From positions 558,001-622,000 of the forward strand of contig JBBELK010000450.1 of the NCBI GenBank assembly GCA_037783545.1: a stretch of DNA of 64,000 bases, written 5' to 3'. Source of the DNA: Henricia sp. BOLD:AAB3569. Taxonomy: Eukaryota; Echinodermata; Asteroidea; Spinulosida; Echinasteridae. Position 1 is the first letter of the stretch; each line of letters starts with the position of its first letter. The translations under genes were made by a program, and so were the position numbers. The notes beneath the pieces are model-generated. The model saw only the letters and a program-made list of their open reading frames with translations. It did not search any database and was not told the DNA's origin. Shown here in pieces: positions 27,801-49,467 of the stretch.

Positions 27801-27988
27801 AGTTTGATAATTATTTGGCAAAAATGTTAATTTAGCAGTACACTTTATTCATAATTGGTATAATTTTTGCAGCTAAGGTGACACAAGACACAGAAATAAT
27901 TCACACAAAACATTTTGGGGTTTATTTGTTTCAGGTTTAATTTAATCATCATACTGACAACCCCATAAGGACAGTGTACCGGGGCATG

Positions 27989-28020
<32 letters not shown>

Positions 28021-31000
28021 CCTTTTCATGCCTGCGCGTGCCGCATGGTAACAAGATGACTAGGTGCAGCTGACTCCGTTTCGATTTCCAGCGAATAAAA
28101 CGATGAGAAAAATATGGCAACCCAACCCACTTTTTCCCCAATCATAGCCGTGCCATTGAAGTTTTTTTTGCATTTTTGAAGGCTTGTATAGATCTCAAAT
28201 TATTACCATCATTTAATCGACATTTGATTACGAGTGTGTACAGAGCATTACACTAATGATTAAACTTGAATTTCCCCACGATAATGCAAAAAGGACGCTT
28301 GCACAATGTATGCATGTCCCTATGCTTACACAACTGGCATCAGACACAAAATGGCGCTCTAAACGTTAATTGTCGCAACGGCTCTGGGCAATTTAAAATA
28401 CATGCGCCACCAAGAGTTTGGCGCTAAAGAGGTAACTTTTGCTATGAGTTGCGGGAAAAGAGTCGGCCTGAACATTGCCAGACATATGTTGTGTATCCTT
28501 GAGAAAAGGTATACATTTTTTTCCTCGCAAAAAATCGTGTTTAAATAATCTCGGCTTCCTAAATAGACTTCGGGGTAATTCCCAAAATTAGGGGGTCCAA
28601 AACGTTTGGTATCCCAGTTATGTACGACACTCTGTGCTTCAAAAATCACCACTCATGATCACAAATTCTCAGTAGTAGACTGTGACCTGTGATTATAGGG
28701 GACAGCATCATATTCTTGAATATTTTGTCCTCTGATTACTGACAAATATTCGAAACAAAAGACCATAAAGCTCATAATTGAAAATCTTTAAAAGCATGTC
28801 ACACTTTCGGACCCCTAATTTTGGGAATTACCCTTCAACCTCTAAATCAGGTATTTGTTTTCAATTCCAATATGAATTGTTTGTACAATAAACAAATGTA
28901 CCGACGTAGACAGCAGACACAAAATTCACTCTTTGACAAACTCTTAGTTTGCTATGTATTTTGTAACCCCAAAGTTATTTTGGCTGTGGCGTAATAAAAT
29001 TATCTTTTGTTAACGTTCGAGTCGCTAACAAGGTGATCTAATATATTACCGGAAATTTGAAGTAAAAAAGACTAAATGTTAGATTCAAACAGGTAATATT
29101 ACACTGTCCCCCTTATTGCCTTCTGACCAAAGTCGCCCTTTAACTTATAAACTCCTGTAAAAGGGGAAATTGGGTGCATTACTAAGCAACCCAAAGCAAC
29201 CAGTCATTATACTGACGGGTGTTTGCAGAATCCGTGTTTGCTTTAAACCACACTCCGCTGTGTGTAATTTGATAACATGTTTGATTTATGTTCATGATTG
29301 AAATTCATGATATAGATGTCGTACTTGTGAACGGAAGTGTGTCAGTTGCCCTCATTTTACAGCATGTGGCCTGATCCTACTAAACCAATTTACATGTATG
29401 GCTTACAAGTACCGTACTGATTTTCCAAATTTTTCTTCCAGGTATGGGTTTATCAGAGAAGTCCAAATGAAATACGGAAAGGTGAGAAATATAATTATAA
29501 TCAGAACAAAAAATACAGAACATAATTTTTGTTGTGGGGGAGAGGGGTGGGGGCAGGAGCATGTAATTTGTTAAAACCTTCACAACATGTCATGAATTTA
29601 GACTCGGATATAAAAAGCATTGTCAGATATTACATAATGTTGTAAGCTTAAAGACCCAGTGTATCATTTGCAATGACCCCAAAAAGTAATCGACGAGTTT
29701 ACAGGGAAAAAGTTCTGAAAGTAAAGATTTAATTAATAGCAACTACCCAATGAAAGGTTTCCGCTCAAAATTATATAATTTTGTTAGAAAATAATCCGTA
29801 AAGATGAAATTATTTAGATCGTTTGCAAAAGATTTACTTATTTTTGGTTCGCATCTACGCGGTCCAAAATACATGGGCGCTGTGTACTTTGTGGGCGTGT
29901 TCCAACGCGATGCATTTTTATGGATCGCGCGCACACGCAGTATATGATGTGCGCCACAGAGTGCATGATGCAAACCACAAAGTACCCGATCAACTGAGAA
30001 CGAATATTTGAAACACCCCGCCAAGACCAGGAAAACGCATATGGATTTTCATGGTTTTTTTTAACGTGGTACATTTGACAAAGCTGAAATTTCTTCGGAT
30101 GAGTTTGTTGATGTCTTTCTTTTGATTTATAATGGTTTTATTCGCAGAATCGCTCAAAAACAGATCATCTACAGGGCCTTTAACAGCTCAATCCATTATG
30201 AGTAATTGGATTCCTAACGCGTCAGAAACCTTGGTCTCAAGTATTCATCCCCATTTGCAAATCAAGGACAACTATTTACTTACCAACCATCAAAAATAAG
30301 GGACAGTGTCATTTAAGAGTAAATGCAGTTTGAGTTTGGATAGTCGTGTGCTTCACAATTCAGAAAGATTTTAAAATTATTTGTTTAAATGTAAGATAGA
30401 AAAATTGTTTTTACAAAGTTTTGTTTAAAATGAAAGGACTCCACATCTAACATGTTTGTCGTTGTCTTGTCGTATCTTAGCCAAACTGCAAGCAGCAAGC
30501 CCAGTGGCTTATCCCACTCTTCAAGGAAGTCTTTGCGAGGCTGCCCTTAGCAACAGTCATTGATGGTAAAATCCTCGTCGCTCATGGAGGCATCTCGGAC
30601 AAGACGGATTTGACGTTACTTAACAACTTGGATCGACACAAGGTGACGCAGTACATACCTTATTATATAACTGCTGATTCACATACGTACAATATTTTGG
30701 TGGGTCCATGTTAAGCCACCTTAGGGTCAAACTTGCGCTGACACAAATCAGTCAGCGACTGGCTTTTTAGGACTAAGCTACGTCTGAGCCACGCATGTCA
30801 GCATCAAAATTGTCGGTGATTGTTTAGAGTCCTATGTGTAGCTCCAACAAAATTAAAACAATCAAACTGCGCTTAAAGTCCCACTATCATTTGCAATGAC
30901 CCCAAAAGTTTATCAACGAGTTGATAGGGAAAACCTTCCTCAAAGTAAAGATTGAAATGGTAGCAACTCTCCAATGAAATATTTCCGCCTGAGATGATAT

Positions 31001-34000
31001 AATTTTACCAGAAAATAGTCCACGGAGATGAAATTATTTACTTCTCATCTGGGCGGTCCGAGATGGGCGCTGTGTACTGCGTGTATGCTGTTCCAACGAG
31101 ATGCATTTTTTAGTGCATCGCGTGGGTCACGCGCACTTGCAGTATGACGCGAGCCACAAAGTACGCGACTGACTAAGAACGAATATTTGAAACGCCCCCC
31201 CAAGATCGGTAAAGCGCACAATTGGTTTTTAATGTTTTTAGAAGACGTGGTACATTTGACAGAGCTGAAATTTCTTCAGATGAGTTCGTTGATGTCCTTC
31301 TTTTGATTTATAATGGTTTTATTCCCAGAATCGCTCAAAAACAGATCATCTATATGGCCTTTAAAAACAGTCACAAAAGTAGAACATGTTCACCTTTTGT
31401 GACGAGAACCCAACTTTTGCAGCCAAATTGATTGAAAGAAAACTGGCAGAGCATGCATCACATGTGTATCAAATTTGTACAGCCAATCGGTGTAAGGAAT
31501 CTTGGGGCCGATTTCACAGTGCTAAGATGCGTCTTAGGAAGAGTCACTCTTATCTTGGGACATTGATATGGGAAATAGGACGCATTGAACTTTTCTTAAC
31601 TTTGGTGAAATCCACCCCTTGTCACATACATGTGTAGTCCTGCATAACATGAACATGGTTGCAATTATTTTGTGTCGAGGTGCTTCTTGTTCACCAATAC
31701 TCAAACATTTTGTTCAGTTTTGATTTTTGCTTTATACCGAGATTGTTCGCTGGCTTCACATAAACGCTACTAGCACAAACGTTTTGCTGGCTCCTTTACT
31801 ACATGTACAAAAGTTTGAGTACACCTGTTGAAAACTATGTTTAGTAACATTTTACAGCATTTTATGCCCAGTACAAAAAACACATTATGCAACCAATATA
31901 TTCAATGCATGTCATAGAAATGTCCTTGAAACTTCAGAAATGTCTCTATCTTTCATTCCTCAAAATAGTCATCTCTGGCTTCATATTTTAAAAAAAGAGT
32001 AGCCTCTGGAGGTCACAAGTTTTAAGAAGTATACAATGAATACAGTATTGTATTATGTAACAGATTATGTGTAATGGTTGTTTTGCATGTGTTCTGACTG
32101 TTCTCTGATTTTTTTTAGGTCCCTGGAGCGTGTCCAAAATCACTTTGTACTAGCTGAATGCACAGTATTGGCACCAGTCAGTTCTTGACCACTATCAGAT
32201 AGCTATCTAGTCTATATTTGCCTTTCTTGCATACACAACTGTTGTAAAATGGCAAAATAAAGGACCCCAGTTGAGTAAAGAAAAGGGCAAGCTGTGATTA
32301 CTCTACGAAATGAGGGTCAATCTTACAGACAAATTGCAAGTACATAGATGGGTCTTTCCACAGTAATGGGGTACATTACTGTGACATACAAGATCTTAGG
32401 TCCTAGTTCAGTTCAAATGTCATAATTTTATCTCTAAATTATCCAGCTAAACTGAGGAAATAACTTTTGCACGAAGGAGTAAGAAAAATAGTCCTACAAC
32501 ATACATTTCTGAAAACCCCATGCACAAATGTTCCTATTACGTATGTAACAAAGACAACAACAAAATGTCACAAAATGGTCTGTCCACGTTACATACGTAA
32601 TAGGAAAATTTGTGCACAAGCTTTTCAAAAATTTCTTACCTTTCTGGGCAATTTCTTACCTTTCTGGGCAAAAAAGAGAGAACAGTACAAGGAAATTTCT
32701 TTAATTTGGGGATAAACTAAAGACATCTGAAAGGAATTATCGACTTATTTTTCAAATGTACCCCATTACTGTGGAAAGACCCAGTTTTTAACAAGTGTAC
32801 TCAAACCTTTGGCCGGTACTGTATGTTCTTACAAAACCATATTAAATTCTGGTCATCGTCTATTGTATGTTGTTACAGTACAAGTCAGTTCTCAAACCAC
32901 CTCTGAAGGACGGTGCTGATGAAATAACGGGAGACGAGGAAGACCTCCAGGACAAAGTAGACTTCACCGAGTGGCGTCAGATTCTAGACATCTTATGGAG
33001 TGACCCTAAGATGGTTAATGGATGTCAACCGAACCTGTTTAGGGGCGGAGGAAGCTACTTCGGTCCTGATATCAGCAATAAAGTGTTGAAGAAACATGGA
33101 CTGGATTTGCTGATTAGATCGCACGAGTGTAAATCGGAAGGCTATGAATACACACACAATGGACTGGTATGGTTAAGGCAAAATTTAATTGTCTTTTTAC
33201 ATTCAACATTTTATTTTATTTTTTAAAATTTTATTTAATGGATTTAATGACTTTTACATCGCAGCCCGTAGGCTGAATTGTATGAAGCTTACAAGTATCT
33301 AAACATCGAGATACATAGGTGGGTGGCGCCATTGGCAGCCGATGGTCAGAAACACCAGGGAATCCCCTTACTCTTCACAAAAGAGTGCTCTGGGATCTTT
33401 TAAGTGCGTTACACAACTCACTGGACCAACACACAACACTCTACAATACCTTCTAAAGGATGGAGCAATGCATAGTTCCGACCTGTCAATCAAGCCGAAC
33501 CCGCGGACCAATCACAACAGAGCTAGCAGACAGCGCCCACATAGGTCAAAGTGATGCAATCATCACACAATCACGCTATTTTCTGCCCATACAGTTTGTA
33601 TGTTATATGCGCCAGTGACCGGGTGAATTTTGGTTTCAATGTCGGGCAATTCGCTGTTCAAAGGTAGGAAAGCGCATTTTTATGAAATATATGTCATCCC
33701 TGCATTACTAGCCCTTCGCTCAGTGTGTGCTACGGTAACTGTCGACCCTAAAACATAAATACCTTTGAGTTTTCTCTAATGAACCTGTGCTTTCCATGCC
33801 GAGTCCCGTTGCTTTATTATTATTTATTCGTTGTGTCGCCATTTTTTTGCGATGGCTTGTGAGCACATAGCAACAATATCTAAGGGGCGGGGTTAACTGG
33901 GCAATCTCGGAATAATGCATTGTAGTCGAGTGCCTTGCTCAAGGACGCAGGTACCACGGCCGGGTATCAAACCCGCAACATCAAGTTTTCACCCCTGTTG

Positions 34001-37000
34001 TGAGTTAACGACCTAAAGCAACTCGGCCATAGTACCCCACACACTTGGGTGTTCAGCAACAGATAAGTGGAAACTCTAAAACGAGCTTGAAAGCACACCT
34101 GCCAACTAGTCCGATTTTATTGTATTTGTTCCGATTTTTAAGTGTTAAAAGTGGAACAGTTGGTAAACGGTCGACTTGACCTGACTCCTTGCGCGCGCCG
34201 CATGTGTTGTGTACATGAAAACGGTTGCAGTACTAGGTCAACTTGACCGTTGTACCAACTCGACCGTTGCAAGTTTCACTACAGTCCTATTTGTTTTACT
34301 CGGCAATATTGGCAGGTGTGGCTTTAAAGCTGTTTTTTTATGGTCCATTTTCCGCAGGTCTTAACAGTTTTCTCTGCGTCCAACTACTACGAGATGGGAA
34401 GCAATCGAGGTGCTTATGTCAAGATGGGAACGGACCTAAAACCGCGCTGTATACAGTACATGGCTTCCAAGTCACACCAGAGACTGTCAGTGGCACAGAG
34501 GTATTGTATGATGGATAGACCATATCCAATAGCTGCCATCTTGTAGGGCAGTTTCTTTTCTTATTATCTCGTTGATTCCAAGAAGTACCTTCTGAAATTA
34601 CCAAAATCTGGGAATTTAGCAGTGTTTGGTATTAATACTGAAAGGTACACACCGGCCTACTGTTTACATGATTCAGTGATGTAGCAGCATTGACAATACT
34701 TTTTAATGGTCGTTGTGAAAAAAAATCATCAAAATATCCCGTAATTTACTAAAGTGCAAAAAACGGTCAAAAGACGGGTTATACGCTTTACCAGCCGTTG
34801 CAACTACGTGCGAGCTTCACGACTTTGTCACAAACGATTCGCTCTTCTCCTACTCGGGATATCTCCAATTTTCTGCTCGCGGTTTCACTGGACAGCCCGG
34901 ACGACCGAATAGGAATTTCCGTTTTCTTTGGAGAAGTTGGCATCATGTTGTTTTCTTCACAAACGTACATCGGAGCAACCAGCCCAACTGCACTCCACCG
35001 TACATGTAGTTTGCCGTAGCACGCGCTCGCTGAGTCCCGTTCTCCGGACTCTCGAAACAAACATTTATGTTCGAATTTTCATTCTTATGTTCAACTTTGT
35101 TTCATACCTGTATAAATAGTCTCTCTTTTGTCAATTACTTATAAATATTGGGGGAAAATCAGAGTTGAATTTGGTGCAGTTCTGCAGTAAGAAACTTTCA
35201 TGCGACTGGACACAAAACTAACTCGGAAGACCATGTGACCTCAAAAACGGCAAAATTACGTGGTTTCTTTCCAGGATATTTTCAGTTTATTTCCGAAGGG
35301 CATTCAGAATCTTGTATGGGTCAATTTCGAGCCCAAAATAGCCCAACGAAGCCGGTGTGTACCTTTAAACATGTACTCGTGTAATGCTGTCCATTAAGAT
35401 TCCTGTCTTCTATTTTACTAGCTTTTTTTATTTTCCATAACACTTGTTTGTTTGGTTTTTTTATTTTATTTCTTTAGACTAAGCATCATTGAGGAATCGG
35501 CATTGAGAGATTTGAAGGATAAGATGGGATCGCACAAAACATCCTTGAAACAAGGATTCCAGCAGTTTGATCCAAACCACACAGGTTAGTCTCATCTCAA
35601 GACTTGCATTCTATTGAGACCGAGTATCATTGAGGAATCGGCATTGAGAGATTTGAAGGAAAAGATGGGATCACACGACATCCTTGAAACAAGGATTCCA
35701 GCAGTTTGATCCAAACCACACAGGTTAGTCTCATCTCAAGACTTACATTCTATTGAGACTGAGCATCATTGAGGAATCGGCATTGAGAGATTTGAAGGAA
35801 AAGATGGGATCGCACAAGACATTCTTGAAACAAGGATTCCAGATTAATTTTAGGCTTATAGATTTGGCAGAAAAATTGATCTACTGTCCCACTAGTATTG
35901 TAGTCACTCCTCCTGCACAGCGAGTCTCTTTACCTTCCTAGCATGATGCTGGTACCCATTTATACACCTGGGTTAAGAGAAGCAATTCATGGCAAAGTGC
36001 CTTGCCCAAGAGCACACGCACATGGACGGGATTCGAACCCACTCCCTGTGGATTTGCCAAAGTCTTGGATTCAGTACGCTATACCACTCGGCCATGGTGC
36101 CCCCAAAACCATGAATTTATAATCCAAATGTTTATGTGATTGTCATGGTAATCAAACAGTCCATTGATACTAATCATGCAGTGTCTATCAATCAATCAAT
36201 CATTTCTGCCTCGCGACGCGTCGATACGTGCTATGAGGGGTGCTTGCATTTAAGCACCTAATTCAAAACTCCCCACTTCAAGCCGTACGGATAAACTGGT
36301 CTCTTTCAAGCTGGGTGGATGAAACTGTTTGTTCGAGAAAAGTTCCAATATATGATTACCCGACTGTTTATATCCGTTGGAGTTAAATAACGGCTGTTTA
36401 GTGTGGCGTGAGTTTGGTTGGCGGATCGTATGGGCGACAAATTTTTGGTTGAGGATGCGCTCGTTGGTCAGGACTAGACGGAAGTCGTGCTCGTGCTCGT
36501 TGCGTCGTTTAAACCCTCCTCGAATCATGCGACGTAGAAATTGCATGTGCGTTCTGTTGAGTTTGCGTGTTTGTTTGCTGGTTAGCGTCCAGGTTTGACA
36601 TGCGTATTTGAGACGACTCCGGATGAATGCGTTGTAAAAGAGAATGCGGGTACCAAGTCGGATGTGCCTGTTCAACATCACGTTCCGCATAGACTCAAAC
36701 TTGCATTTGGCTGCCTCGATTCTGGCGTTGACCTCTATCGCCAGTCGCCGGTTGGTCATACTGAAGGCAACTACCTAGGTATTTAAGGTCTCGTGAGTTT
36801 GGTATTTGGATGCCATGTATCACAAGTTCACTGGTAACCTGGGGCCAATTTCATTAACGACCGATTTTCTGTTAACCGAGCATCTGCTATTTCATAGGCA
36901 TCGTTAATGGTAAGCAACTGAAAACGTGCCTTAACTGCAGGGCCAAACTTTGCTTTAGACAGTGACGCAACAATAGCCATTTCCAAGCATACGCATGATT

Positions 37001-40000
37001 AACCACACTGTGACCTTGAAATAGCGCTGAACTCGTCTGCTACAGTAAGCACGTCATTACTGCTTACGCTTAAAGGGACAAACCGGCTAATTTGGGCTCG
37101 AAATAGACCCATAAATGATTCTGAAAGTTTTTCCGAAATAGACTGAAGAGAACCTGAAAAGAAACCACCAAATTTGGCCGTTTTTGAGCATTTTTCAAAA
37201 ACATCGAGGTCACATGATTTATCGGAACCAGATTCTGGTTCTGATAAATCACGTGTCCTTGGAGTTAGTTTTATTTCCAGCCGCATGGCCGTGTGATACC
37301 GTTTATTCCTGAAGTTTATTACCGCAGTACTGCATCAAAAGAGACTATTATTCAGGTTATAAAACAAAGTTGAACATAACTCTGAAAAATCGAACATAAA
37401 ATTGACACAAGTTTGAGAAACCGAAGCGAGTTCCACCGTGGACAGTCTACCGGACAATGTGACATTTAGTCCCATGGCACACACACGTTGCCCGCCCAAA
37501 ACCGGTGCGTTCGTGAAGACAAACCATGAATGTCAGCTCCTCTACAGAAAACAGAAAACCCCCATTCGGTCGTCCAGGCTGTCCAGTGAAATCTTCAGCA
37601 GAAAATGAGAGATATCCAAAGCAAAAAGCTGCCAAGTGAAGAGCGAATCGCTTCCGACAAAGTCGCGAGTCTCGCGCGATAGTGAACGGCTGGTAAAGCG
37701 TATAACTCGACTATCAAGCATTTTTATATATTTTAAGCTTTCGTGGTTAATTACGGGACATTTTGACTATCTTTTTTCACAAGGGCCATCACAAAATTAT
37801 TGTCAAGGATGCTGTATCACTAAATTACGTAAACAGTAGGCCGGTGTGTACCTTTAAGCGGCTCTATTAAATCGGCCCCTGATGTAGTAATCAAGAGCCT
37901 TTTCTGTGCTTTAGCAAATGTTTGTGCTAATAAGCAGCTACTTGAAATTGAACCTTGATTCTTAAGTGTAATAACGAATTAACCTATATTTGTATGATTT
38001 CTTATCAGGGTTTATTACATTGACTCAATGGGCGCATGTAATGGAGGAGGTGTTAGAGTTGACCATTCCTTGGCGGACACTCAGAAGCAGACTTATAAGA
38101 ACCAATGATCAGGTAAAAAAATCACTCATTCTGTGGCGTAACGGAGGTGTTTGTTATGGTGGCTTAAAGGCAGAGGCTCGTCAATGTGCGCGTGAGGCCA
38201 AATTCGTGCCATGAAATACTCAGCTCCATGCCTTTGCTATGGAGCTGTGTATTTCGTGGCACAAATTTGGCCTCATGCGCGCATTGACGAGCCTGTGCCT
38301 TTAATGTTGCTGAATGTGATTTGTTTTGTATCTTGCTGTAACGGGGAATGGTTGAATACGAATCATGCATGGAAATGGAGCTAACCATTAAGGGACATGA
38401 CGGAGGATCTAGCGTAACGGAGGTGTTTGTTATGATGGCTTACGTTACTGAATGTGATTTGTGTGTGTCTTGCTGTAACAGGGAATTGTTGAATACGAAT
38501 CATGCATGGAAATGGAGCTAACCATTAGGGTCATGACGGGGGACCTAGCGTAACGGAGGTGTTTGTTACGATGGCTTAACGTTACTGAATGTGATTTGTT
38601 GTTGTCTTGCTGTAACAGGGAATGGTTGAATACGAATCAAGCATGGAAATGGAGCTAACCATTAAAGGGCATGACGGGGGACCTAGCGTAACGGAGGTGT
38701 TTGTTACGATGGCTTAACGTTACTGAATGTGATTTGTTGTCTTGCTGTAACAGGGAATGGTTGAATACGAATCAAGCATGGAAATGGAGCTAACCATTAA
38801 GGGTCATGACGGAGGACCTAGCGTAACGGAGGTGTTTGTTATGGTGGCTTAACGTTGCTGAATGTGATTTGTTTGTGTTTTGCTGTAACAGGGAATGGTT
38901 GAATACGAATCATGCATGGAAATGGAGCTGACCATTAAGGGTCATGACGGAGAGCCTAGCGTAACGGAGGTGTTTGTTACGATGGCTTAACGTTACTGAA
39001 TGTGATTTGTTGTCTTGCTGTAACAGGGAATGGTTGAATACGAATCAAGCATGGAAATGGAGCTAACCATTAAAGGGCGTGACGTGGGGACCTAGCGTAA
39101 TGGAGGTGTTTGTTATGGTGGCTTAACGTTGCTGAATGTGATTTGTTTGTGTTTTGCTGTAACAGGGAATGGTTGAATACGAATCATGCATGGAAATGGA
39201 GCTGACCATTAAGGGTCATGACGGAGAGCCTAGCGTAACGGAGGTGTTTGTTACGATGGCTTAACGTTACTGAATGTGATTTGTGTGTGTCTTGCTGTAA
39301 CAGGGAATGGTTGAATACGAATCATGCATGGAAATGGAGCTAACCATTAGGGTCATGACGGGGGACCTAGCGTAACGGAGGTGTTTGTTACGATGGCTTA
39401 ACGTTACTGAATGTGATTTGTTGTTGTCGTCTTGCTGTAACAGGGAATGGTTGAATACGAATCATGCATGGAAATGGAGCTGACCATTAAGGGTCATGAC
39501 GGAGAGCCTAGCGTAACGGAGGTGTTTGTTACGATGGCTTAACGTTACTGAATGTGATTTGTTGTTGTCTTGCTGTAACAGGGAATGGTTGAATACGAAT
39601 CATGCATGGAAATGGAGCTAACCATTAAGGGTCATGACGGAGGGCCTAGCGTAACGGAAGTGCTGTATCGCAATAAGAACAGTCTGGAGACGATATTCAG
39701 GGCCATGGACAAGGACCATTCAGGTAACTTCTGCTTAATGTTGAAGTGGTGTGTGATACATTTTAACTCTTTCAGTATGGAATCTTTTCAAGGTCTTTGA
39801 CAAGAAAATTGAAAGCCAGATTCGTTTACAGATGAGCCATTGGTAGCAGGTTTCTGGCCGGAAGTATACGTTTCTCAAACTGCTGTGAGCGGTGCACCGT
39901 AGTTTTAAAAAGAGGCCGTCGGCTGCCAATGGTGCCACCTACCGCTCGGCGAATAGCTCGATTAATCGCGAGTAGTAAACGGTACTCATACTCGTGACTA

Positions 40001-41949
40001 TCATTTTTAAACTACTCGATTAATCGTGGTGCCGCGAGTACCGTTACATACTCGCAATATTGTTACACTGTAACAGGCCTGTTTCCCAGCCACTTAAAGG
40101 CCCAGTGTATCATTTGCAATGACCCAAAAAAGTAATCAACGAGTTTACAGGGGAAAAGTTCTGAAAGTAAAGATTAATATCAACTACCCAATGAAAGGTT
40201 TCCGCTCAAAATAATATAATTTTACCAGAAAATAATCCGTAAAGATGAAATTATTTAGATCGTTTGCAAACGATTTACTTATTTTTGGTTTGCATCTAAG
40301 CGGTCCAAAATGAATGGGTGCTGTGTACTCCGTGTGCGTGTTCCAACGCGATGCATTTTTATGGATCGCGCGCACACGCAGTATATGATGTGCGCCACAG
40401 AGTGCATGACGCAAGCCACATAGTACCCGATCAACTGAGAACGAATATTTGAAACACCCCGCCAAGACCAGGAAAACGCATATATGGATTTTCATTTTAT
40501 TTTTAAACGTGGTACATTTGACAAAGCTGAAATTTCTTCGGATGAGTTTGTAGATGTCTTTCTTTTGATTTATACTAGTTTTATTTGCAGAATCGCTCAA
40601 AAACAGATCATCTACAGGGCCTTTAAAAGGCGACCTGTGACTTAGCAAGTGACTTAGCCTCTTTGTTGTTTATGCCGACTATTTCAATTCTTCAATGTAT
40701 CCTTTGTGCTATCGGAAGTCCGACAAGCATGTTTTGAACCACAACGACCGAGCTAGTACAACAACTGCAGATCTCTGCGTGTCATCTGCCGCGTACGCCA
40801 TGGTTCAATGTACTGTTTCATTGCGCTACTCATATTACTCGCGATTAATACACGCTATGTTACATATGTGACATAGCTACATGCACGGGTTGAAGGAGAA
40901 TTATGGCAAACTTATGCCGTCGCGTCGCGGAGCAAGACGTTAGATTTTCATTACTCAAAGGTAATCGAGGTAGTTTTTAAGAGAGAAATACGAAATATAA
41001 ATCCTTGTTGAAGTTCACCATTTATGCATTGTTTGAAACAGAATCGGGGCGGCACAGATTAGGCAAATTTCCACTGTACGGTTGGTTACTTATACACACA
41101 AATGTGCATTTTGTTTTTTCATCCCTTTTGAAAATATAAACGCCCCATGTAAATTATTTATGTAACATGAATTTAATATATTTTGCAACTAAGGCTAATA
41201 AAAGTTTCAAAGTGTCACATGCGGCATTTATAATTTTGTTCAGTGTATTTTAGTCTGTATACTTGTGTTTGTGAGTTATGTTTGTCTATTTTAGCCAAAA
41301 TAAATAAATATAAAATATAAAATGTGTGCTATATAAAAATAATCATCATATAGCAGTCGCGTATCTTCCTATACATGTTAGAACTGTTCACATGAACTCT
41401 ACCTACATGAAATTCAGCCATGAAGTTTGCGTGATAAAAACCTGTGTGAAATTCCAGCATGTAGTTGACAGGATTGACAATGTTGTCACTGGCTTGGTCC
41501 GGTGGTTAAGACGTCTGCCTTGTTTGTAGGAGGTAGTGGGTTCGAGTCCCACCCGGGCACGCTATGAGGTTGTTCATAGTGTCTTGGGAAAGCACTGAGT
41601 ATACAGTATTAATAATTACATCGGTTAAGGGCAAAACAAACCCTAATTAACTTGACAATTTTGATTACCCCTCTCCGCAGGCACAATAACAATGGATGAA
41701 TTTGAAGAGGCATGTAGTCTACTCAGTAAACACGTCGGCTCGGAGATCCCCAAAGAATCGGTTCAGGACTTGGCACGATGTATTGACATCAATAAAGACG
41801 GTTACATTGACTTCAATGAGTTCTTAGAAGCGTTTCGATTGGTGGACACTGAGGTGAATAACGACCAATTGGAGAGTGGTAAATCAAAAGCGGATTTGAA
41901 ACTGGAGACTAACGGTACCAAGAACACCCAGGCGAATACGGTGATCTGA
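815..41949 (+). CDS. PPEF: PPEF/rdgC-like Ser/Thr protein phosphatase with EF hands, whole gene (14 coding exons)
   Basis: Joined coding exons: 815-869, 11267-11439, 17821-17908, 21017-21283, 21683-21729, 25924-26090, 29442-29481, 30481-30642, 32879-33166, 34358-34500, 35478-35584, 38009-38112, 39582-39723, 41681-41949. Every junction is GT-AG and every phase fits, giving 2052 nt and 683 residues, close to human PPEF1 (about 650) and PPEF2 (about 750). Domain order: MGC lipidation start, IQ motif (about 41-52), phosphoesterase motifs GDLHG (195-199), GDFVDRG (224-230), GNHED (256-260), HGGIS (314-318), RSHE (413-416) and SASNYY (435-440), then EF loops at 508-519, 590-601 and 630-641. The family dephosphorylates phospho-Ser/Thr using two metal ions and is controlled by Ca2+ and calmodulin; fly rdgC acts on rhodopsin in photoreceptors. 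A sensory-cell role here is inferred from the family. All catalytic residues look intact. Confidence 0.95.
1218..1566. mobile_element. Foldback MITE
   Basis: ATTCTTGGGTTTCACTTTCT at the left and AAGTGAAACCCAAGAAT at the right; the inverted arms continue for about 80 bases through CATTACTGTGTCCATACTA. Confidence 0.88.
1680..1800. mobile_element. Near-perfect 121-bp palindrome
   Basis: Arms of 52 bases starting AGCAGCCGATTTCACGAAAC are exactly complementary, around an 18-base centre. It sits inside the intron 1 repeat block. Confidence 0.93.
1942..3635. promoter_or_regulatory. Cluster of nine perfect CRE palindromes
   Basis: TGACGTCA occurs at 1942, 2118, 2434, 2610, 2916, 3266, 3277, 3617 and 3628. 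This octamer is the consensus full CRE bound by CREB/ATF proteins. The sites are carried by repeat units in PPEF intron 1; whether they act as an enhancer is unknown. Confidence 0.6.
4300..4462. mobile_element. Inverted-repeat MITE
   Basis: TATAGACCCTTTGCACAAAC and the diverged complement ending ATAGGGTCTATA; GGCCATGACA/TGTCATGGCC pair inside. A half copy of the GCTGCCATCTTGTGG family abuts it at about 4463-4510. Confidence 0.75.
4804..5267 (-). mobile_element. TTAA element, family 7
   Basis: Ends TTTTCACTTCACAAATCCTT and TTAA (5264-5267), the reverse complement of the start of 60292. Homology continues back to TTGCAAGTTTTCTATTTTTA; the other terminus is not clear. In PPEF intron 1. Confidence 0.7.
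5268..6071. other. Intron 1 sequence without recognised feature
   Basis: AT-rich single-copy-looking DNA. I see no exon, tRNA or repeat in it. Confidence 0.5.
6072..6577 (+). mobile_element. TTAA MITE, family 1
   Basis: Starts near AAGGCATTATACATGTAC and ends ACCAATCATGTATACTATCT followed by TTAA (6574-6577). Shares CGTCTCATGAGACGAAAA and CGCCCCAAAACCA motifs with the copies at 1, 13573, 22781 and 50292. Lies in PPEF intron 1. Confidence 0.8.
6890..7917 (-). mobile_element. Degenerate hAT-like or ZNF862-like transposon fragment
   Basis: A frame on the - strand at 6954-7106 reads [20 protein letters not shown], then [19 protein letters not shown], resembling the start of hAT-derived zinc-finger proteins in invertebrates. 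ACCGGTCTAGT near 6917 and AACCACTAGACCGGCG near 7888 suggest inverted borders. No catalytic region is seen. Confidence 0.4.
7918..8905. mobile_element. GTGTTTACACT-ended inverted-repeat element
   Basis: Starts ACCGTGTTTACACTGGTC and ends GGATCAAGTGTAAACACGGT. CCGAGCTCGGGATC-type subrepeats recur at both ends (about 7935-8040 and 8745-8890). No protein recognised. In PPEF intron 1. Confidence 0.75.
8906..10322. other. Intron 1 sequence without recognised feature
   Basis: Contains short direct repeats such as TGGGACAGACCC (8968 and 8994) and AT-rich DNA with TACATGTA words. No coding exon fits PPEF here; the frame from exon 1 to exon 2 already joins. Confidence 0.5.
10323..10845 (+). mobile_element. 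TTAA MITE, family 4, right end lost
   Basis: TTAAAGGGCCTGTGACATGC begins a close relative of the element at 11661; homology runs to about 10845 and then stops before the right terminus. In PPEF intron 1. Confidence 0.8.
11267..11439 (+). CDS. PPEF: PPEF exon 2 (IQ motif)
   Basis: Codes residues 19-76. The acceptor is CATTAG at 11261-11266 and the donor is AAG|GTTAGT. The IQ motif, [12 protein letters not shown], at residues 41-52 is the expected calmodulin-binding helix and is followed by IFQSIEY, which is nearly identical in human PPEF1. An ATG at 11278 is in frame but internal, because the frame is open back to the splice site and exon 1 supplies the lipidated start. Confidence 0.95.
11661..12241 (+). 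mobile_element. TTAA MITE, family 4
   Basis: TTAAAGGGCCCATGACATGC at the left and CATGGGCCCTTTAA at the right (12238-12241), a clean 14-bp inverted terminus with TTAA. In PPEF intron 2. Confidence 0.88.
12679..12790. repeat. 24-bp minisatellite, four to five units
   Basis: CTCATTCGCATATTTGTGGC plus ACCT repeats at 24-25-bp spacing; the last unit is degenerate. In PPEF intron 2. Confidence 0.9.
13484..14474 (+). mobile_element. GGGTCTTTCC element split by a TTAA MITE
   Basis: Left GGGTCTTTCCAAAGTAATGG and right CCATTACTGTGAAAAGACCC are inverted. Interior matches 32350-32782 and 61561-61988. The MITE 13573-14123 lies within it. Confidence 0.85.
13573..14123 (+). mobile_element. TTAA MITE, family 1, nested in another element
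   Basis: TTAA at both ends (13573-13576 and 14120-14123), with termini AAAGGCAGTATACATGATTG and TACCAATCATGTATACT. It interrupts the GGGTCTTTCC element 13484-14474. Intact relatives at 61561 and 32350 show the uninterrupted site. Confidence 0.9.
14851..15018 (+). pseudogene. Myb/SANT-like N-terminus of a Harbinger accessory protein, broken
   Basis: Reads [20 protein letters not shown], then [21 protein letters not shown] basic stretch followed by W-S-x-D-E-T-x-x-L-I-E-A is the usual first helix of Myb/SANT-like domains in Harbinger accessory proteins. The frame ends after KMDGMVYKY, where the palindromic MITE 15003-15185 begins. Confidence 0.55.
15003..15185. mobile_element. Palindromic MITE interrupting the Myb-like gene
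   Basis: GGTATACAAATATTGACTGC at the left pairs with GCAGTCAATATTTG at the right. The inner arms GTGATCTCGAAGCCATGACT and its complement form a long stem with a short CCGAGGCGGAAGCCGAGG loop. Confidence 0.85.
15479..15638 (+). repeat. 80-bp tandem duplication
   Basis: AGCTGCATAGTTGGTGCACA to CTAAATGACTATGCCC occurs twice back to back (15479-15558 and 15559-15638) with only a few differences. Confidence 0.9.
16672..16799. mobile_element. Foldback MITE
   Basis: GGGAATAAAATTGGGTTTGG and CAAACCCACTTTTATTCCC are inverted, with ACGTTTAAAACCGG in the arms. Related fragments occur at about 17060 and 45245-45295 (GTTTAAGACTGGCCACA). Confidence 0.85.
17222..17580 (-). mobile_element. tRNA-derived SINE, family A
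   Basis: On the - strand it starts GGGGTACCGTGGCCGAGTGG, with a box A (TGGCCGAGTGG) and box B (GGTTCGAATCC) as in tRNA-Ser/Leu-type heads, then a 200-bp body and an (AAT)n tail. Pol III transcribed in principle. Copies at 33341, 44907 and 62845. Confidence 0.88.
17821..17908 (+). CDS. PPEF: PPEF exon 3 (linker after IQ motif)
   Basis: Codes residues 77-105, starting [14 protein letters not shown]. The acceptor is TCTCTGTACAG and the donor is GATG|GTAATG (phase 1). It matches the LSTFFSFML segment that follows the IQ region in human PPEF1. It links the calmodulin-binding part to the catalytic domain and is otherwise poorly conserved. Confidence 0.9.
18087..18350. mobile_element. Foldback MITE
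   Basis: ATATGGGTCATTCTATAAAT and ATTTATAGAATGACCCATAT are perfectly inverted over 20 bases; the arms continue with GGGGTCCA/TGGACCCC and CTGTCCCCGTTACA. Confidence 0.92.
18600..18952 (+). mobile_element. 5'-truncated LINE (CR1/L2/Jockey-like) 3' end
   Basis: The + strand encodes [20 protein letters not shown] with [14 protein letters not shown] at about 18742-18858, the characteristic C-terminus of ORF2 in CR1/L2/Jockey-type retrotransposons. A CTTTATAAATGCAATGTATT end and (ATT)n tail follow. Everything upstream of the C-terminus is missing. In PPEF intron 3. Confidence 0.85.
18953..20290. other. PPEF intron 3 sequence with one repeat remnant
   Basis: Mostly unfeatured AT-rich DNA. GAGAGCGTGATCCAATTCCG near 19726 and TTTGGATCACGCTCTAC ending near 20126 are inverted and suggest an old element of about 400 bp. 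Confidence 0.4.
20503..20810. mobile_element. Foldback MITE
   Basis: GGGCTCTAGGAAAATGAGTC at the left pairs with GACTCATTTTCCTAGAGCC at the right; AAAGAATACTAGC is also mirrored. A diverged relative lies at about 22452-22715. It interrupts a family 6-like element (about 20290-20935). Confidence 0.85.
21017..21283 (+). CDS. PPEF: PPEF exon 4 (start of catalytic domain)
   Basis: Codes residues 106-194. The acceptor is TTGTACAG and the donor is TGTG|GTAAGT (phase 1). It carries the segment with [17 protein letters not shown] and ends ITVC just before the GDLHG motif. Part of this exon (21178-21233) is repeated immediately after the exon, at about 21283-21331, so the functional donor GTAAGT lies inside the duplicated sequence. 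Confidence 0.95.
21283..21331 (+). repeat. Partial copy of exon 4 in intron 4
   Basis: The intron begins GGTAAGTACTGCATTCAG and continues ATCTTGCTAGAAAGATGC. Exon 4 at 21178-21233 has GCTAAGTACTGCATACAG followed by ATCTTGCTAGAAGCTAG. The copy lacks six bases and has several substitutions. The splice donor of exon 4 is created inside the copy by C to G. Confidence 0.85.
21366..21517. mobile_element. TATAGACC MITE
   Basis: TATAGACCGTATCGAATAGC and GCTATTCGATATGGTCTAT inverted, with GCTGCCATCTTGT inside. Other copies at 34512 (half), 47174 and 49062 (three). Confidence 0.88.
21683..21729 (+). CDS. PPEF: PPEF exon 5 (GDLHG metal-binding motif)
   Basis: A 47-nt exon coding residues 195-210, [16 protein letters not shown]. 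Asp and His of GDLHG bind the first metal of the phosphoesterase centre. The acceptor is CCCTCACAG and the donor is AAG|GTGAGC. The Gly codon is split by the intron. Confidence 0.95.
21967..22280 (+). mobile_element. tRNA-like SINE, family B
   Basis: Box B GGGATCGAATCCC at about 22036, then the GTGCCCTTGGGCAAGGCACT body shared by many invertebrate SINEs, and a GTAAAGCGCCATGAGTATCC end. Box A is degenerate. In PPEF intron 5. Confidence 0.65.
22781..23233 (+). mobile_element. TTAA MITE, family 1
   Basis: Begins TGTAAAGGTAGAACACATGA and ends ATGCGTTCTACCTTTAA (TTAA 23230-23233). The subterminal bases differ from other copies, but inverted symmetry is kept, so this is a distinct subfamily. Lies in PPEF intron 5. 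Confidence 0.8.
23951..24223. mobile_element. 16-bp-TIR element with internal CCATTTTTATTAGGTC repeats
   Basis: CGTATTAGGACGACCG and CGGTCGTCCTAATACG are exact inverted ends. Inside, AAAAACCATTTTTATTAGGT-like units repeat about five times. A related piece at about 44655-44880 has GGTCAAAAACCATTTTTG units. Confidence 0.82.
24747..25294. mobile_element. PIF/Harbinger-type MITE with TAA target duplication
   Basis: TAA (24744-24746) then GGCCCGCTTCAAACTTCGTG; the right end is CGACGTTTGAAGCGGGCC then TAA (25295-25297). The TWA target and GGC terminus are typical of PIF/Harbinger. Internal inverted blocks of GACACGGCA and GCACGAC suggest nested copying. In PPEF intron 5. Confidence 0.8.
25521..25689. 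mobile_element. TAGACTACTAAAGTG MITE
   Basis: ATAGACTACTAAAGTGTGAC and CACTTTAGTAGTCTAT are inverted; TTGCCATGG and CCATGGCAA pair inside. 169 bp. In PPEF intron 5. Confidence 0.88.
25924..26090 (+). CDS. PPEF: PPEF exon 6 (GDFVDRG and GNHED motifs)
   Basis: Codes residues 211-265 and two thirds of Arg266. GDFVDRG at 224-230 supplies the bridging Asp and the phosphate-binding Arg; GNHED at 256-260 supplies the metal-ligand Asn and catalytic His. The acceptor is TTTTTGTAG and the donor is CTGAG|GTTGGT (phase 2). Very similar to the human sequence [12 protein letters not shown]. Confidence 0.97.
26599..27653 (+). mobile_element. TTAA element, family 6, hosting a Harbinger fragment
   Basis: TTAAAGGAGTGTGACCAG at the left and CTGGTCACGCTCCTTTAA at the right (27650-27653). 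About 690 bp in the middle (26617-27303) belong to a second element. Partial relatives are at about 50004-50270 and 20290-20935. Confidence 0.85.
26617..27303 (+). mobile_element. PIF/Harbinger-like element with transposase remnant
   Basis: Inverted ends GGGGCCGATTTCACTAACG and GTTAGTGAAATCGGCCCC. Inside, about 26907-27060 reads as [20 protein letters not shown] and then [15 protein letters not shown], resembling the N-terminal part of HARBI1-type transposases. The frame breaks near 27050 and no catalytic DDE part remains. No TWA duplication is evident, so the family call rests on the protein. Confidence 0.7.
27984..28025. repeat. Short TCGCCTTCC tandem repeat
   Basis: CCTCGCCTTC repeated about four times at 10-bp spacing. 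Confidence 0.85.
28573..28833. mobile_element. GGGTAATTCCC MITE
   Basis: GGGTAATTCCCAAAATTAGG and CCTAATTTTGGGAATTACCC are perfectly inverted. In PPEF intron 6. Confidence 0.9.
29442..29481 (+). CDS. PPEF: PPEF exon 7 (40-nt microexon)
   Basis: Codes [13 protein letters not shown] (residues 266-279 including the split Arg). The acceptor is TTCTTCCAG and the donor is AAG|GTGAGA. The YGF sequence directly after NLR is conserved in PPEF enzymes. Confidence 0.93.
29648..30183 (+). mobile_element. TTAA MITE, family 3
   Basis: TTAAAGACCCAGTGTATCAT at the left, ACAGGGCCTTTAA at the right (TTAA 30180-30183). Long internal homology to 30873-31364 and 40094-40626. In PPEF intron 7. Confidence 0.9.
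30481..30642 (+). CDS. PPEF: PPEF exon 8 (HGGIS motif)
   Basis: Codes residues 280-333 in phase 0 at both ends. It contains [19 protein letters not shown]; the His of HGGIS at 314 is a metal ligand. The acceptor is CGTATCTTAG and the donor is AAG|GTGACG. Confidence 0.95.
30873..31364 (+). mobile_element. TTAA MITE, family 3
   Basis: TTAAAGTCCCACTATCATTT to ATGGCCTTTAA (TTAA 31361-31364). A more diverged copy of the element at 29648, in PPEF intron 8. Confidence 0.85.
31365..32349. other. PPEF intron 8 sequence without recognised feature
   Basis: No exon or repeat recognised. The exon 8 to exon 9 phase is already complete. Confidence 0.5.
32350..32782 (+). mobile_element. GGGTCTTTCC element
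   Basis: Left GGGTCTTTCCACAGTAATGG, right CCATTACTGTGGAAAGACCC, perfectly inverted over 20 bases. In PPEF intron 8. Contains no protein. Confidence 0.9.
32879..33166 (+). CDS. PPEF: PPEF exon 9 (acidic insert, ILWSDP and RSHE motifs)
   Basis: The longest exon, coding residues 334-429 in phase 0. An acidic stretch at 344-361 matches the variable insert that PPEF proteins carry inside the catalytic domain, here much shorter than in human PPEF1. ILWSDP, the Gly-rich [11 protein letters not shown] and LLIRSHE follow; RSHE holds the last metal-binding His and substrate Arg. The acceptor is TTGTTACAG and the donor is CTG|GTATGG. Confidence 0.97.
33341..34039 (-). mobile_element. SINE family A, interrupted copy
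   Basis: Head GGGTACTATGGCCGAGTTGC and body match the copy at 17222. The body is interrupted between 33474 and 33913 by another sequence flanked by AATGCAT. Confidence 0.85.
33474..33913. mobile_element. 440-bp insertion in the SINE with AATGCAT duplication
   Basis: AATGCAT lies on both sides (33467-33473 and 33914-33920). The ends AGTTCCGACCTG and CAATCTCGGAAT are partly inverted. The SINE at 17222 shows the uninterrupted order GGATGGAGCAAGTG. Confidence 0.65.
34358..34500 (+). CDS. PPEF: PPEF exon 10 (SASNYY, end of catalytic domain)
   Basis: Codes residues 430-476, starting [26 protein letters not shown] is the signature near the active-site groove in PPP phosphatases. The acceptor is TTTTCCGCAG and the donor is CAGAG|GTATTG (phase 2). 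Directly downstream (34512-34570) is half of a MITE related to those at 47174 and 49062. Confidence 0.95.
34512..34575 (+). mobile_element. Half TATAGACC MITE
   Basis: GATAGACCATATCCAATAGC then GCCATCTTGTAGGGCAG; the second arm is missing. Starts 12 bases after PPEF exon 10. Confidence 0.8.
34637..35368 (+). mobile_element. TTAA MITE, family 2 (about 730 bp)
   Basis: Termini AAAGGTACACACCGGCC and GCCGGTGTGTACCTTTAA (TTAA 35365-35368). Three more copies lie at 37070, 48041 and 57433. Contains no protein. In PPEF intron 10. Confidence 0.85.
35478..35584 (+). CDS. PPEF: PPEF exon 11 (helix and first half of EF-hand 1)
   Basis: Codes residues 477-512, ending DPNHT, the first five positions of EF loop 1. 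The acceptor is TTTCTTTAG and the donor is ACAG|GTTAGT (phase 1, inside Gly at loop position 6). Two degenerate copies follow in the same intron, at 35618-35756 and 35757-35842. Confidence 0.93.
35618..35842 (+). pseudogene. Two degenerate tandem copies of PPEF exon 11
   Basis: The 141-bp unit 35477-35617 (exon 11 plus the start of its intron) is repeated at 35618-35756 and, cut short, at 35757-35842. Copy 2 has lost two bases in the HKTSL region, so it is frameshifted, and it keeps the donor ACAG|GTTAGT. Copy 3 ends at GGATTCCAG and has no donor. The acceptor CTTTAG is replaced by ATTGAG in both. Confidence 0.9.
35884..36104 (-). mobile_element. tRNA-derived SINE, family C
   Basis: On the - strand GGCACCATGGCCGAGTGG, box B GGGTTCGAATCCCGTCC, then the GGGCAAGGCACTTTGCCAT body. 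Lies after the duplicated exon 11 copies. Confidence 0.78.
36250..36837 (-). pseudogene. LINE reverse-transcriptase C-terminal fragment
   Basis: The - strand frame at 36250-36759 has [20 protein letters not shown] and later [20 protein letters not shown] then [13 protein letters not shown], typical of the region after the reverse-transcriptase palm in non-LTR elements. Just upstream another frame reads [14 protein letters not shown], so a frameshift separates the parts. The element is truncated at both ends. Confidence 0.85.
36842..37879. mobile_element. GGGGCCAATTTCATTAACG element split by a TTAA MITE
   Basis: GGGGCCAATTTCATTAACG at the left and TATTAAATCGGCCCCT at the right. The left part (GGTAAGCAACTGAAAACGTG and onward) is mirrored at 45620-45880, a second copy. 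The MITE 37070-37857 interrupts it. Confidence 0.7.
37070..37857 (-). mobile_element. TTAA MITE, family 2, nested
   Basis: TTAA at both ends (37070-37073, 37854-37857). It is inverted relative to the other copies and inserted into a GGGGCCAATTTCATTAACG element whose remains are at about 36842-37069 and 37858-37879. Confidence 0.85.
38009..38112 (+). CDS. PPEF: PPEF exon 12 (second half of EF-hand 1)
   Basis: Codes residues 513-547, GFITLTQW then the PWRTLRSRL segment. The EF loop D-P-N-H-T-G-F-I-T-L-T-Q has Gln rather than Glu at position 12, so Ca2+ binding there is probably weak, as is common for PPEF EF-hand 1. The acceptor is CTTATCAG and the donor is CAG|GTAAAA (phase 0). Confidence 0.93.
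38131..39581 (+). repeat. Exon-13-derived tandem array (nine extra copies, about 137 bp each)
   Basis: The string GGGAATGGTTGAATACGAAT (or one-base variants) starts at 38344, 38481, 38618, 38753, 38891, 39026, 39165, 39303 and 39443, and at 39581 in the real exon. Spacing is 135-140 bp. Each unit holds intron 3' end, acceptor and about the first 78 nt of exon 13, then jumps to GTGTTTGTTACGATGGCTTA. Copies 2-9 keep TAACAG; copy 1 has TAACGG. Copies 5, 7 and 9, copies 4 and 6, and copies 2 and 8 are closest to one another, a pattern expected from unequal crossing over. Confidence 0.95.
38164..38304. mobile_element. TTAA MITE, family 5 (141-bp foldback), with paralogous empty sites
   Basis: TTAA flanks an almost complete hairpin beginning AAAGGCAGAGGCTCGTC and ending GACGAGCCTGTGCCTTT. 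It sits in the first unit of the exon 13 array; the sister units read GGTGGCTTAACGTTGCTGAA with a single TTAA and no insert. Confidence 0.95.
39582..39723 (+). CDS. PPEF: PPEF exon 13 (first half of EF-hand 2)
   Basis: Codes residues 548-594, [20 protein letters not shown], then [20 protein letters not shown], ending DKDHS. It aligns with human GNVEY and LVETLYRYRSDLEIIF. The acceptor is GCTGTAACAG and the donor is TCAG|GTAACT (phase 1). It is the tenth and only full-length copy of a tandem array in which the first part of this exon is repeated upstream. Confidence 0.93.
40094..40626 (+). mobile_element. TTAA MITE, family 3
   Basis: TTAAAGGCCCAGTGTATCAT to CAGGGCCTTTAA (TTAA 40623-40626). 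Closest to the copy at 29648. In PPEF intron 13. Confidence 0.9.
41488..41640 (+). mobile_element. tRNA-derived SINE, family D
   Basis: GGCTTGGTCCGGTGGTTAAG (box A-like) and GTGGGTTCGAGTCCCACC (box B with a paired T stem) at 41490-41558, followed by a short tail. Forty bases before exon 14 the intron resumes. Confidence 0.6.
41681..41949 (+). CDS. PPEF: PPEF exon 14 (EF-hand 2 end, EF-hand 3, C-terminus, stop)
   Basis: Codes residues 595-683 and the TGA. It completes EF loop 2 (DKDHSGTITMDE) and carries EF loop 3 ([12 protein letters not shown]); both have acidic or oxygen ligands at 1, 3, 5 and Glu at 12 and should bind Ca2+. The C-terminal tail is Lys/Asn/Thr rich and variable. The acceptor is CTCTCCGCAG. 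Confidence 0.96.
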
Positions 41950-42875
41950 TAGTGGGTCATGTGATCATGTGCCTGAGAAGAACGACAAAGGTTGTGACGC
42001 TCTGCAAACGGTGCAGATGAGATGTATATGTGAGGTTAATCATCACACTGCGTTCACATTAAAAATTGCCACGGTGGATTGAGATCCCACCAGTAAACAT
42101 GTCAGTTGTGTGAGCGTGTGCTTGGCAAAAACAACATGTGAGTTAGACACCACAAATGTTAAAAATTGTTGGAAGTCTTTTCAGTTTGGCAAGCAAATGC
42201 CAGATTGATGCCGACATTACGTTTACACTAGAAATAACGACGATGGATTGAGACATGGCAGTTTAATTCCAGCTACACGTCTCCAGGCATGGTGCATTTA
42301 GACTGTTATCTTCTTACTTCTTACAGAGCAGTTTATCTCGCAGTAAATTGACCCAGTACATGAAATTCAAGCCATTTCAAGTGCAAGGCCATGGCTATAG
42401 CCGTCAACTGTACACAACGGTTTTTTTCAGCATTATCTGACTTTAGTCTGGACTTGTGGGAACTGCTGAGTGAAATCTGCATCCGATCTGACAAAACCAG
42501 ATTTTATAACAAAAACGTCTTGCAAAAGTTGTCAACTCGGAGTGTAAAGTAAGCAACTTCAGCAAGGCCAGACCGAAAGGACATCGTGACTGAAGTATGA
42601 TTAGCCTTTTAGTGCCTGCTACTTGGGTAATTGCTGTTTTTTGCACGTGTTTTGTGAAAAAACTCTGGGGGAAAAAAACCAAGAATATGTTCTTGGGAAA
42701 TTATATATTTTATGGCCTTAACTTGCCCACTGGCAAATTGAATGGCCAGTGACTTTCAAGCATTACTAGTTACCATAATTTGTCTTTTTAAATGTACATA
42801 CTCTGTATACATTTTAGAACATATGGAGGTTTTTGTGTTCAACAATGCATGTACTGTGTGTGCATGCGCATTTGA
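41950..42875. other. PPEF 3' flank / probable 3' UTR
   Basis: Follows the TGA at 41947. No clear AATAAA close to the stop was found, so the 3' end is not placed. No other gene is seen. Confidence 0.45.
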
Positions 42876-44171: not shown

Positions 44172-44310
44172 TTAAAGGTACAGGCTCGTCAGCAATGCGC
44201 GCGCGCCAAATTCGTGCCACGAAATACGCAGCTCCATGCCTTTGCTATAGAGCTGCGTATTTCGTAGCACGAATTTTGCGCGCGCATTGCTGATGAGCCT
44301 GTGCCTTTAA
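44172..44310. mobile_element. TTAA MITE, family 5
   Basis: TTAAAGGTACAGGCTCGTC at 44172 and GAGCCTGTGCCTTTAA ending at 44310. Same hairpin design as 38164-38304, with GCGCGCGC in the arms. Confidence 0.92.
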
Positions 44311-47173: not shown

Positions 47174-47310
47174 TATAGATCATATCAAATAGATGCCATC
47201 TTGTAGGGCAACTTTTGTTGTTTAAACAATGTAAACACTAAGCAAACACGCATGTCCTCACACAAGGAAACTACTCTACAAGATGGCAGCTATTCAATAC
47301 GGTCTATAGG
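47174..47310. mobile_element. TATAGAT MITE
   Basis: TATAGATCATATCAAATAGA to GCTATTCAATACGGTCTATA; same family as 21366. Confidence 0.85.
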
Positions 47311-49061: not shown

Positions 49062-49467
49062 GAACCATATTGAATAGCTGCCATCTTGTGGGGCACCTTT
49101 TGTTACTTAAACTGTTCAACAATGTAAGCATAAATTGTGCAACCTCGCATGTCCTAAAGGAACAAAGAAACTGCCCCACAAGATGGCGGCTATTCGATAT
49201 GGTCTATAGCTGCCATCTTGTGGGGCACCTTTTGTTACACTGTTCAACAATGTAAGCACAATATGTGCAACCATGCATGTCCTCAAGGAACAAAGAAACT
49301 GCCCCACAAGATGGCGGCTATTCGATATGGTCTATAGCTGCCATCTTGTGGGGCACCTTTTGTTACTTACACTGTTCAACAATGTAAGCACAATATGTGC
49401 AACCATGCACGTCCCCAAGGAACAAAAACTGCCCCACAAGATGGCGGCTATTCGATACGGTCTATAG
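49062..49467. repeat. Three tandem TATAGACC MITE units
   Basis: Three near-identical units joined at GGTCTATAGCTGCCATCTTG (49199 and 49330), period about 130 bp. The array ends 26 bp from the TIMM10B stop and so probably lies in or next to its 3' UTR. Confidence 0.92.

Follow-up and report, generated by a model that had tools for sequence, protein, structure and literature searches.

An array of ten units across the acceptor boundary of exon 12 in a sea-star PPEF gene

How does a coding exon come to be the last of ten tandem units, the nine others lying upstream and repeating its acceptor region and first codons, and how could the right acceptor then be chosen? These questions are raised by a gene in the 64,000-nucleotide stretch of Henricia sp. 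DNA that was analysed here as a whole (the window). It is a PPEF/rdgC-type phosphatase gene on the + strand, with 13 coding exons encoding 661 amino acids at 11267..41950 in a model built by hand from homology and splice sites alone. The predicted protein hits the Pfam models for Metallophos (E 1e-29) and for EF-hands, and its best PDB match is rdgC (E 2.4e-132, across 438 of the 439 residues submitted). The Metallophos domain is followed by C-terminal EF-hands and the protein is rdgC-like along the 439 residues tested, which bears out the identification as PPEF made in an initial annotation of this DNA. The same annotation had numbered the exon at the end of the array 13; in our model it is coding exon 12 of 13, at 39582-39723. 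A second PPEF copy was not found in the assembly (740.7 Mb, 2104 contigs). The exons of the hand-built model are the following:

11267-11439, + strand, PPEF exon 1, with the ATG at 11278
17821-17908, + strand, PPEF exon 2
21017-21283, + strand, PPEF exon 3
21683-21729, + strand, PPEF exon 4
25924-26090, + strand, PPEF exon 5
29442-29481, + strand, PPEF exon 6
30481-30642, + strand, PPEF exon 7
32879-33166, + strand, PPEF exon 8
34358-34500, + strand, PPEF exon 9
35478-35584, + strand, PPEF exon 10
38009-38112, + strand, PPEF exon 11
39582-39723, + strand, PPEF exon 12 (the true exon), phase 0 in and phase 1 out, acceptor TAACAG, donor CAG|GTAACT; the encoded stretch aligns to rdgC
41681-41950, + strand, PPEF exon 13

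The array and its landmarks were located as follows:

38136..39658, + strand, tandem array, ten units head to tail, each 135-141 bp except unit 1 (276 bp, insert included); TRF, seam search and alignment
38136..38145, + strand, left border direct repeat GCGTAACGGA; border comparison
38164..38304, no strand assigned, near-palindromic MITE-like element (judged by eye) flanked by TTAA on both sides, confined to unit 1; sequence and alignment
38339..38344, + strand, first upstream acceptor, its AG lost (TAACGG); seam search
38476..39443, + strand, the eight upstream TAACAG acceptors; sequence
39649..39658, + strand, right border direct repeat GCGTAACGGA, within true exon 12; border comparison

TRF reported a 138-bp period with 9.9 copies at 38301-39662 (91% matches, score 2269), and cutting at the seam motif gave units starting at 38137, 38413, 38549, 38687, 38822, 38960, 39096, 39234, 39371, and 39512, so the ten copies first described were recovered. 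The array had been placed from 38131 onwards; the array itself stands, while its left border lies at 38136. Each unit joins 57-63 nt of intron end, acceptor included, to 26 codons from the start of exon 12; the tenth is the real exon 12. Nine acceptors precede the true one, and the earlier count of eight with TAACAG was reproduced, the 5'-most reading TAACGG. The exon-like parts after the TAACAG decoys start at 38482, 38619, 38754, 38892, 39027, 39166, 39304, and 39444. The divergence after codon 26 was likewise found as described, the copies continuing with GAGGTGTTT and true exon 12 with GAAGTGCTG; no similarity was seen between the unit sequence and the true exon in this part (the value was reached by 78% of shuffles).

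Pairwise identity among the ten units ranges from 87.8 to 99.3%, and no two are alike. The closest pairs are units 5 and 7 (99.3%), 2 and 8 (97.8%), 3 and 6 (96.4%), and 4 and 6 (96.3%), and unit 1 is the most divergent. The unit tree supports two pairs only (90/96 and 91/99); the stricter mark was reached by none of its seven inner branches, five of which are open, and unit 10, at the other edge of the array, is not set apart in this poorly resolved tree. When 165 nt of the last unit were compared with the 740.7-Mb assembly, the best candidates scored included ten matches, all within the array. Unit 1 is 276 bp long because a 137-bp insert with TTAA target duplication lies inside it; without the insert it measures 139 bp. 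A relative of this MITE-like element is found at 44172-44310 in the window.

The 10 nt of GCGTAACGGA are exactly the same at both borders, and 13 of 14 positions are identical once the repeats are extended over GTG. A sequence common to both borders points to duplication between a short direct repeat in the intron and its counterpart in the exon. The exon had been said to seed its own minisatellite; the exonic repeat does take part, but the exon is not the sole seed, the array being bounded by an intronic and an exonic 10-nt repeat. Before the array arose, GCGTAACGGAGGTG probably stood in intron 11, some 138 nt ahead of the GCGTAACGGAAGTG of exon 12. As suggested by the borders, slippage or unequal exchange involving this pair of sites would have duplicated the intron end, the acceptor, and 26 codons, and further unequal exchanges, some perhaps of two units at a time, would have brought the array to ten units. 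To judge from its divergence, unit 1, the bearer of the MITE-like insert, may have remained outside this turnover. This is the order of events that we infer. The array would sit in intron 11 and be spliced out along with it, and no function would be required of it. We consider it highly likely that the array is an acceptor-side minisatellite of the kind called a mirage, produced by direct-repeat duplication and unequal exchange and now neutral intronic DNA, with the true acceptor selected by exon definition. The array is probably harmless.

Mirages, tandem repeats across an exon-intron boundary, were described and named in amphioxus, according to the passages on them in PMC3087553 and PMC3902484. 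In the amphioxus globin gene BflGb6, units of 150-160 bp with 81-100% identity number six and three on two haplotypes; turnover is reported as concerted with the edge unit excluded, and RT-PCR suggests that splicing is undisturbed (passages in PMC3087553). The PPEF array resembles it in that an intron 3' end and an exon 5' part are repeated in tandem, with splice signals kept in many units. In contrast to the amphioxus case with its six or three copies and RT-PCR, it belongs to an echinoderm, has ten copies, and is known here from sequence alone. The relatedness of the PPEF units, with close inner pairs and unit 1 the most divergent, may also recall the turnover of BflGb6, as far as a poorly resolved tree allows. 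For the amphioxus mirages in Adh3 (Canestro 2002) and troponin C (Yuasa 1998), no aberrant mRNA is reported, as cited in the relevant passages of PMC3087553 and PMC3902484. The Adh3 mirage is length-unstable according to the same citations, and its units measure 10-72 bp (quoted in PMC3087553), compared with 135-141 bp in the exon 12 array. In potato RdRp, a tandem duplication across an intron-exon boundary gave a new intron supported by RNA-Seq (passages in PMC4974935). It shares with PPEF an acceptor-side boundary duplication and a cryptic exonic donor available in the upstream copy; the potato gene has a single extra copy plus the new intron, whereas PPEF has nine extra copies, seen at the DNA level. 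The abalone TSSK1-like gene carries a 27-bp intron minisatellite, and the passages concerned with it do not mention an exon boundary. An echinoderm array spanning such a boundary was not described in the literature searched, in which subscription papers were mostly outside reach. The array had been called unusual; this holds in part, since the structure already has a name, several amphioxus examples in the parts of PMC3087553 and PMC3902484 concerned, and a second representative in the same gene. The PPEF array is a known kind of repeat in a new phylum, and it extends boundary-spanning minisatellites from amphioxus to a sea star.

The second representative and two shorter exon-edge copies within PPEF are listed here:

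35473..35842, + strand, second array, on the donor side: true exon 10 and copies at ~35614 and ~35753, period 139, 2.6 copies; TRF and sequence
21285..21328, + strand, short (44-nt) copy of the exon 3 stretch 21180-21230, placed at the donor of that exon (TGTG|GTAAGTACTG); score 56, compared with at most 31 among 400 random windows
11205..11237, + strand, short (33-nt) copy of the exon 1 stretch 11295-11331, lying upstream of the acceptor of that exon (11266); score 42, compared with at most 25 among 400 random windows

The exon 10 array opens with the true exon; its unit spans the donor and has a period (139 bp) almost equal to that of the exon 12 array. The donor CACACAG|GTTAGT is repeated in copy 2, and copy 3 ends inside exon sequence, before the donor. 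Thus, the tandem unit crosses an exon-intron boundary in both arrays, and the AG/GT signals are kept at least partly, as TAACAG in eight of nine upstream acceptors and as GTTAGT in one of the two extra exon 10 copies. The exon 10 array can be likened to that of amphioxus BflGb9, which is donor-side with a 157-bp unit (passages in PMC3087553), and the 60- and 108-bp repeats over splice sites in amphioxus PGBD5 (passages in PMC3902484) are similar to both PPEF boundary arrays; BflGb9 and PGBD5 differ from them in being other genes of another phylum.

The flanking-copy scores were 175 for exon 10, 147 for exon 12, 56 for exon 3, and 42 for exon 1, compared with a random maximum of 31 for any exon (400 windows), and the remaining 22 of the 26 PPEF exon sides scored 24 or less. 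A flanking copy is present at four of the 13 exons, against a rotation mean of 1.3-1.5, with at least four in 1.8-3.5% of 399 rotations, and strong copies number two against a mean of 0.70 (10%), in a test that is biased since the gene was picked on account of the finding. The exon 3 donor GTAAGTACTG was seen to run into the copy of exon 3 inner sequence (TAAGTACTGCATACAG), and homology for its duplication may have come from the native donor. Separately, an element with inverted AATAGCTGCCATCTTGTGG-like ends was noticed at 49073-49452 (three in tandem) and also at 21380-21504, 34528-34546, and 47188-47294; such ends gave 11 matches within the window with at most three mismatches.

Exon edges elsewhere in the genome were compared with nearby intron-side windows as controls, using 40 exons from Metallophos (10 of 10) and myosin (30 of 83) matches, loci that are partly dependent, since some lie on paired contigs or belong, several at a time, to a single gene. 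A flanking copy with a score of at least 40 was found for 1/40 exons and 16/151 controls. When L027, which is PPEF exon 5, was left out, the figures were 1/39 and 14/147, the control hits being spread over 10 loci. Inverted similarity at the same threshold was found for 1/39 exons and 24/147 controls. Exon edges as favoured targets are not supported, as local duplications are commoner in the intron windows (14/147) than at the exons (1/39). Since intron windows are duplicated more often, the boundary arrays look like ordinary local tandem duplications that reached an exon edge by chance. The excess of such exons in PPEF over most rotations of its exon map speaks the other way, but for a gene picked on account of the finding. 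Two pairs of myosin loci deserve to be located:

C372:295874-296074 and C353:739300-739500, no strand assigned, myosin pair L041 and L042, with a G-rich spacer between the C353 copies
C316:543850-544053 and C80:176015-176218, no strand assigned, myosin pair L046 and L047, with a 78-bp minisatellite beside the exon

The sole exon hit comes from the first pair, in which a myosin exon end and its donor have an extra partial copy on C353 that is absent from C372. The two loci are 97.3% identical across 3011 aligned bases and are probably two haplotypes, with recent paralogues as the alternative, and the copy is a candidate presence/absence mirage. In the second pair, the 78-bp repeat adjoining the exon has 10.9 copies on C316 and 5.9 on C80, and the loci are 97.9% identical where aligned. 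For a Metallophos exon (L029), an exact copy of 18 nt lies 147 nt downstream. Judging from the exon 10 array and the myosin copy on C353, boundary duplication appears to be a recurrent kind of event.

Which features could single out the true acceptor? The eight decoys had been described as identical to it; this holds for the last six bases, while the preceding tracts are similar and not all identical. Their pyrimidine content is 0.65-0.70 in the decoys and 0.65-0.85 in the 13 model acceptors. As the decoys match the true site in the last six bases and are nearly identical to it in branch region, tract, and the first bases of the exon, the acceptor-adjacent sequence is unlikely to be the selector. 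Read-through from all nine decoys meets a stop after 22-58 codons, so mis-spliced transcripts would be degraded. The true acceptor is probably chosen as the only one followed by the remaining 21 codons and by a good donor 142 nt on, that is, by exon definition. The locus offers a natural test of how cells pick the right splice site, in which exon definition is directly testable. Recursive splicing was considered and rejected, the copies reading CAG|GGA, without a donor at that place.

The seam between units forms a putative donor, GAG|GTGTTT. On a crude donor matrix, this donor scores 4.6, compared with 8.9 for the true exon 12 donor and 3.8-10.6 for the 12 model donors. The crude-matrix score exceeds that of the exon 9 donor (3.8) and is near that of the exon 5 donor (4.9), so donor strength alone cannot exclude the decoys. 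The units could accordingly be read as 78-nt in-frame exons (26 codons, phase 0-0) closed by GAG|GTGTTT and separated by introns of about 60 nt, with at least one 26-residue repeat in some transcripts. The unit geometry of 78 nt plus 57-63 nt fits this reading, as do the position of the seam donor between those of exons 9 and 5 and the AG with an open 26-codon frame in upstream units 3, 4, 5, 7, and 9. The boundary duplication in potato RdRp did make a new intron, whose donor was recruited from exonic sequence (passages in PMC4974935), and boundary arrays are candidate sources of novel exons and introns. Among distinct decoy changes, 6/12 are synonymous, against 23% expected (one-sided 0.037), which also leans this way and hints weakly at passage of some variants through the true exon or at decoys that are not wholly neutral. 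However, one-base indels shift the frame in units 2 and 8 (1-nt deletion each) and in unit 6 (1-nt insertion), unit 1 has no AG, an intron of about 60 nt leaves, in our judgement, little room from donor to branch point, and the donor score rests on that crude matrix. Moreover, the exon-like parts of the decoys vary (pi 0.057) much like the intron parts (0.049 if the T/G run is left out, 0.069 if it is counted). We therefore regard such exons as very unlikely. A working exon factory, in which units of about 138 nt, each combining a 78-nt in-frame exon with a ~60-nt intron and five of the upstream ones being intact, give some PPEF mRNAs tandem 26-residue repeats before the C-terminal EF-hands, is slightly less probable still.

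The AG loss in the 5'-most decoy could hint at selection. Low-level, deliberate use of decoys, leading to transcript decay and so tuning the PPEF dose, would be in keeping with the early stop in all nine read-throughs and with the stop (TAG) met at once when reading past the exon 10 donor. A stop is usual in intron read-through anyway, however, conservation support for the decoys is absent, and related minisatellites of the same genome vary in copy number between paired contigs, which leaves this regulatory role highly improbable. An assembly with fewer true copies, or with alleles strung together, deserves equally little credence: many myosin matches are paired on two contigs (near-identity was checked for two pairs), so that haplotypes are probably not fully merged, but the second array lies within the same gene, the array contig measures 1.1 Mb, one unit carries an insert, and all ten units differ by private changes, which argues against simple assembly duplication. 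Neutral intronic DNA, spliced out with intron 11, is what we infer for the array.

The mitochondrial genome was also encountered in the assembly. Contig C955 has three COX1 copies, spaced 16,221 bp apart, and C2104 has one, so the mitochondrial genome stands in tandem; the tandem arrangement in C955 is probably an assembly effect. The spacing of the COX1 copies gives a mitochondrial unit of 16,221 bp. All eight AAA codons of COX1 face Asn in its best PDB match, which we take to be a mammalian entry, in agreement with code table 9 (used by echinoderms and flatworms); amphioxus was accordingly rejected as the host. The COX1 frame stays open when AGR is read as Ser, which is compatible with tables 9 and 5 alike. 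A search by a repeat motif, meant to trace the organism, matched one bacterial MAG in genome_contigs and nothing in viral_contigs and was of no help. With genes named by eye, the order is COX1-ND4L-COX2-ATP6-COX3-ND3-ND4-ND5-ND6(-)-CYTB, while ND2 and ND1 lie on the minus strand; this order is an echinoderm one and, with ND1 and ND2 inverted, presumably the sea-star arrangement.
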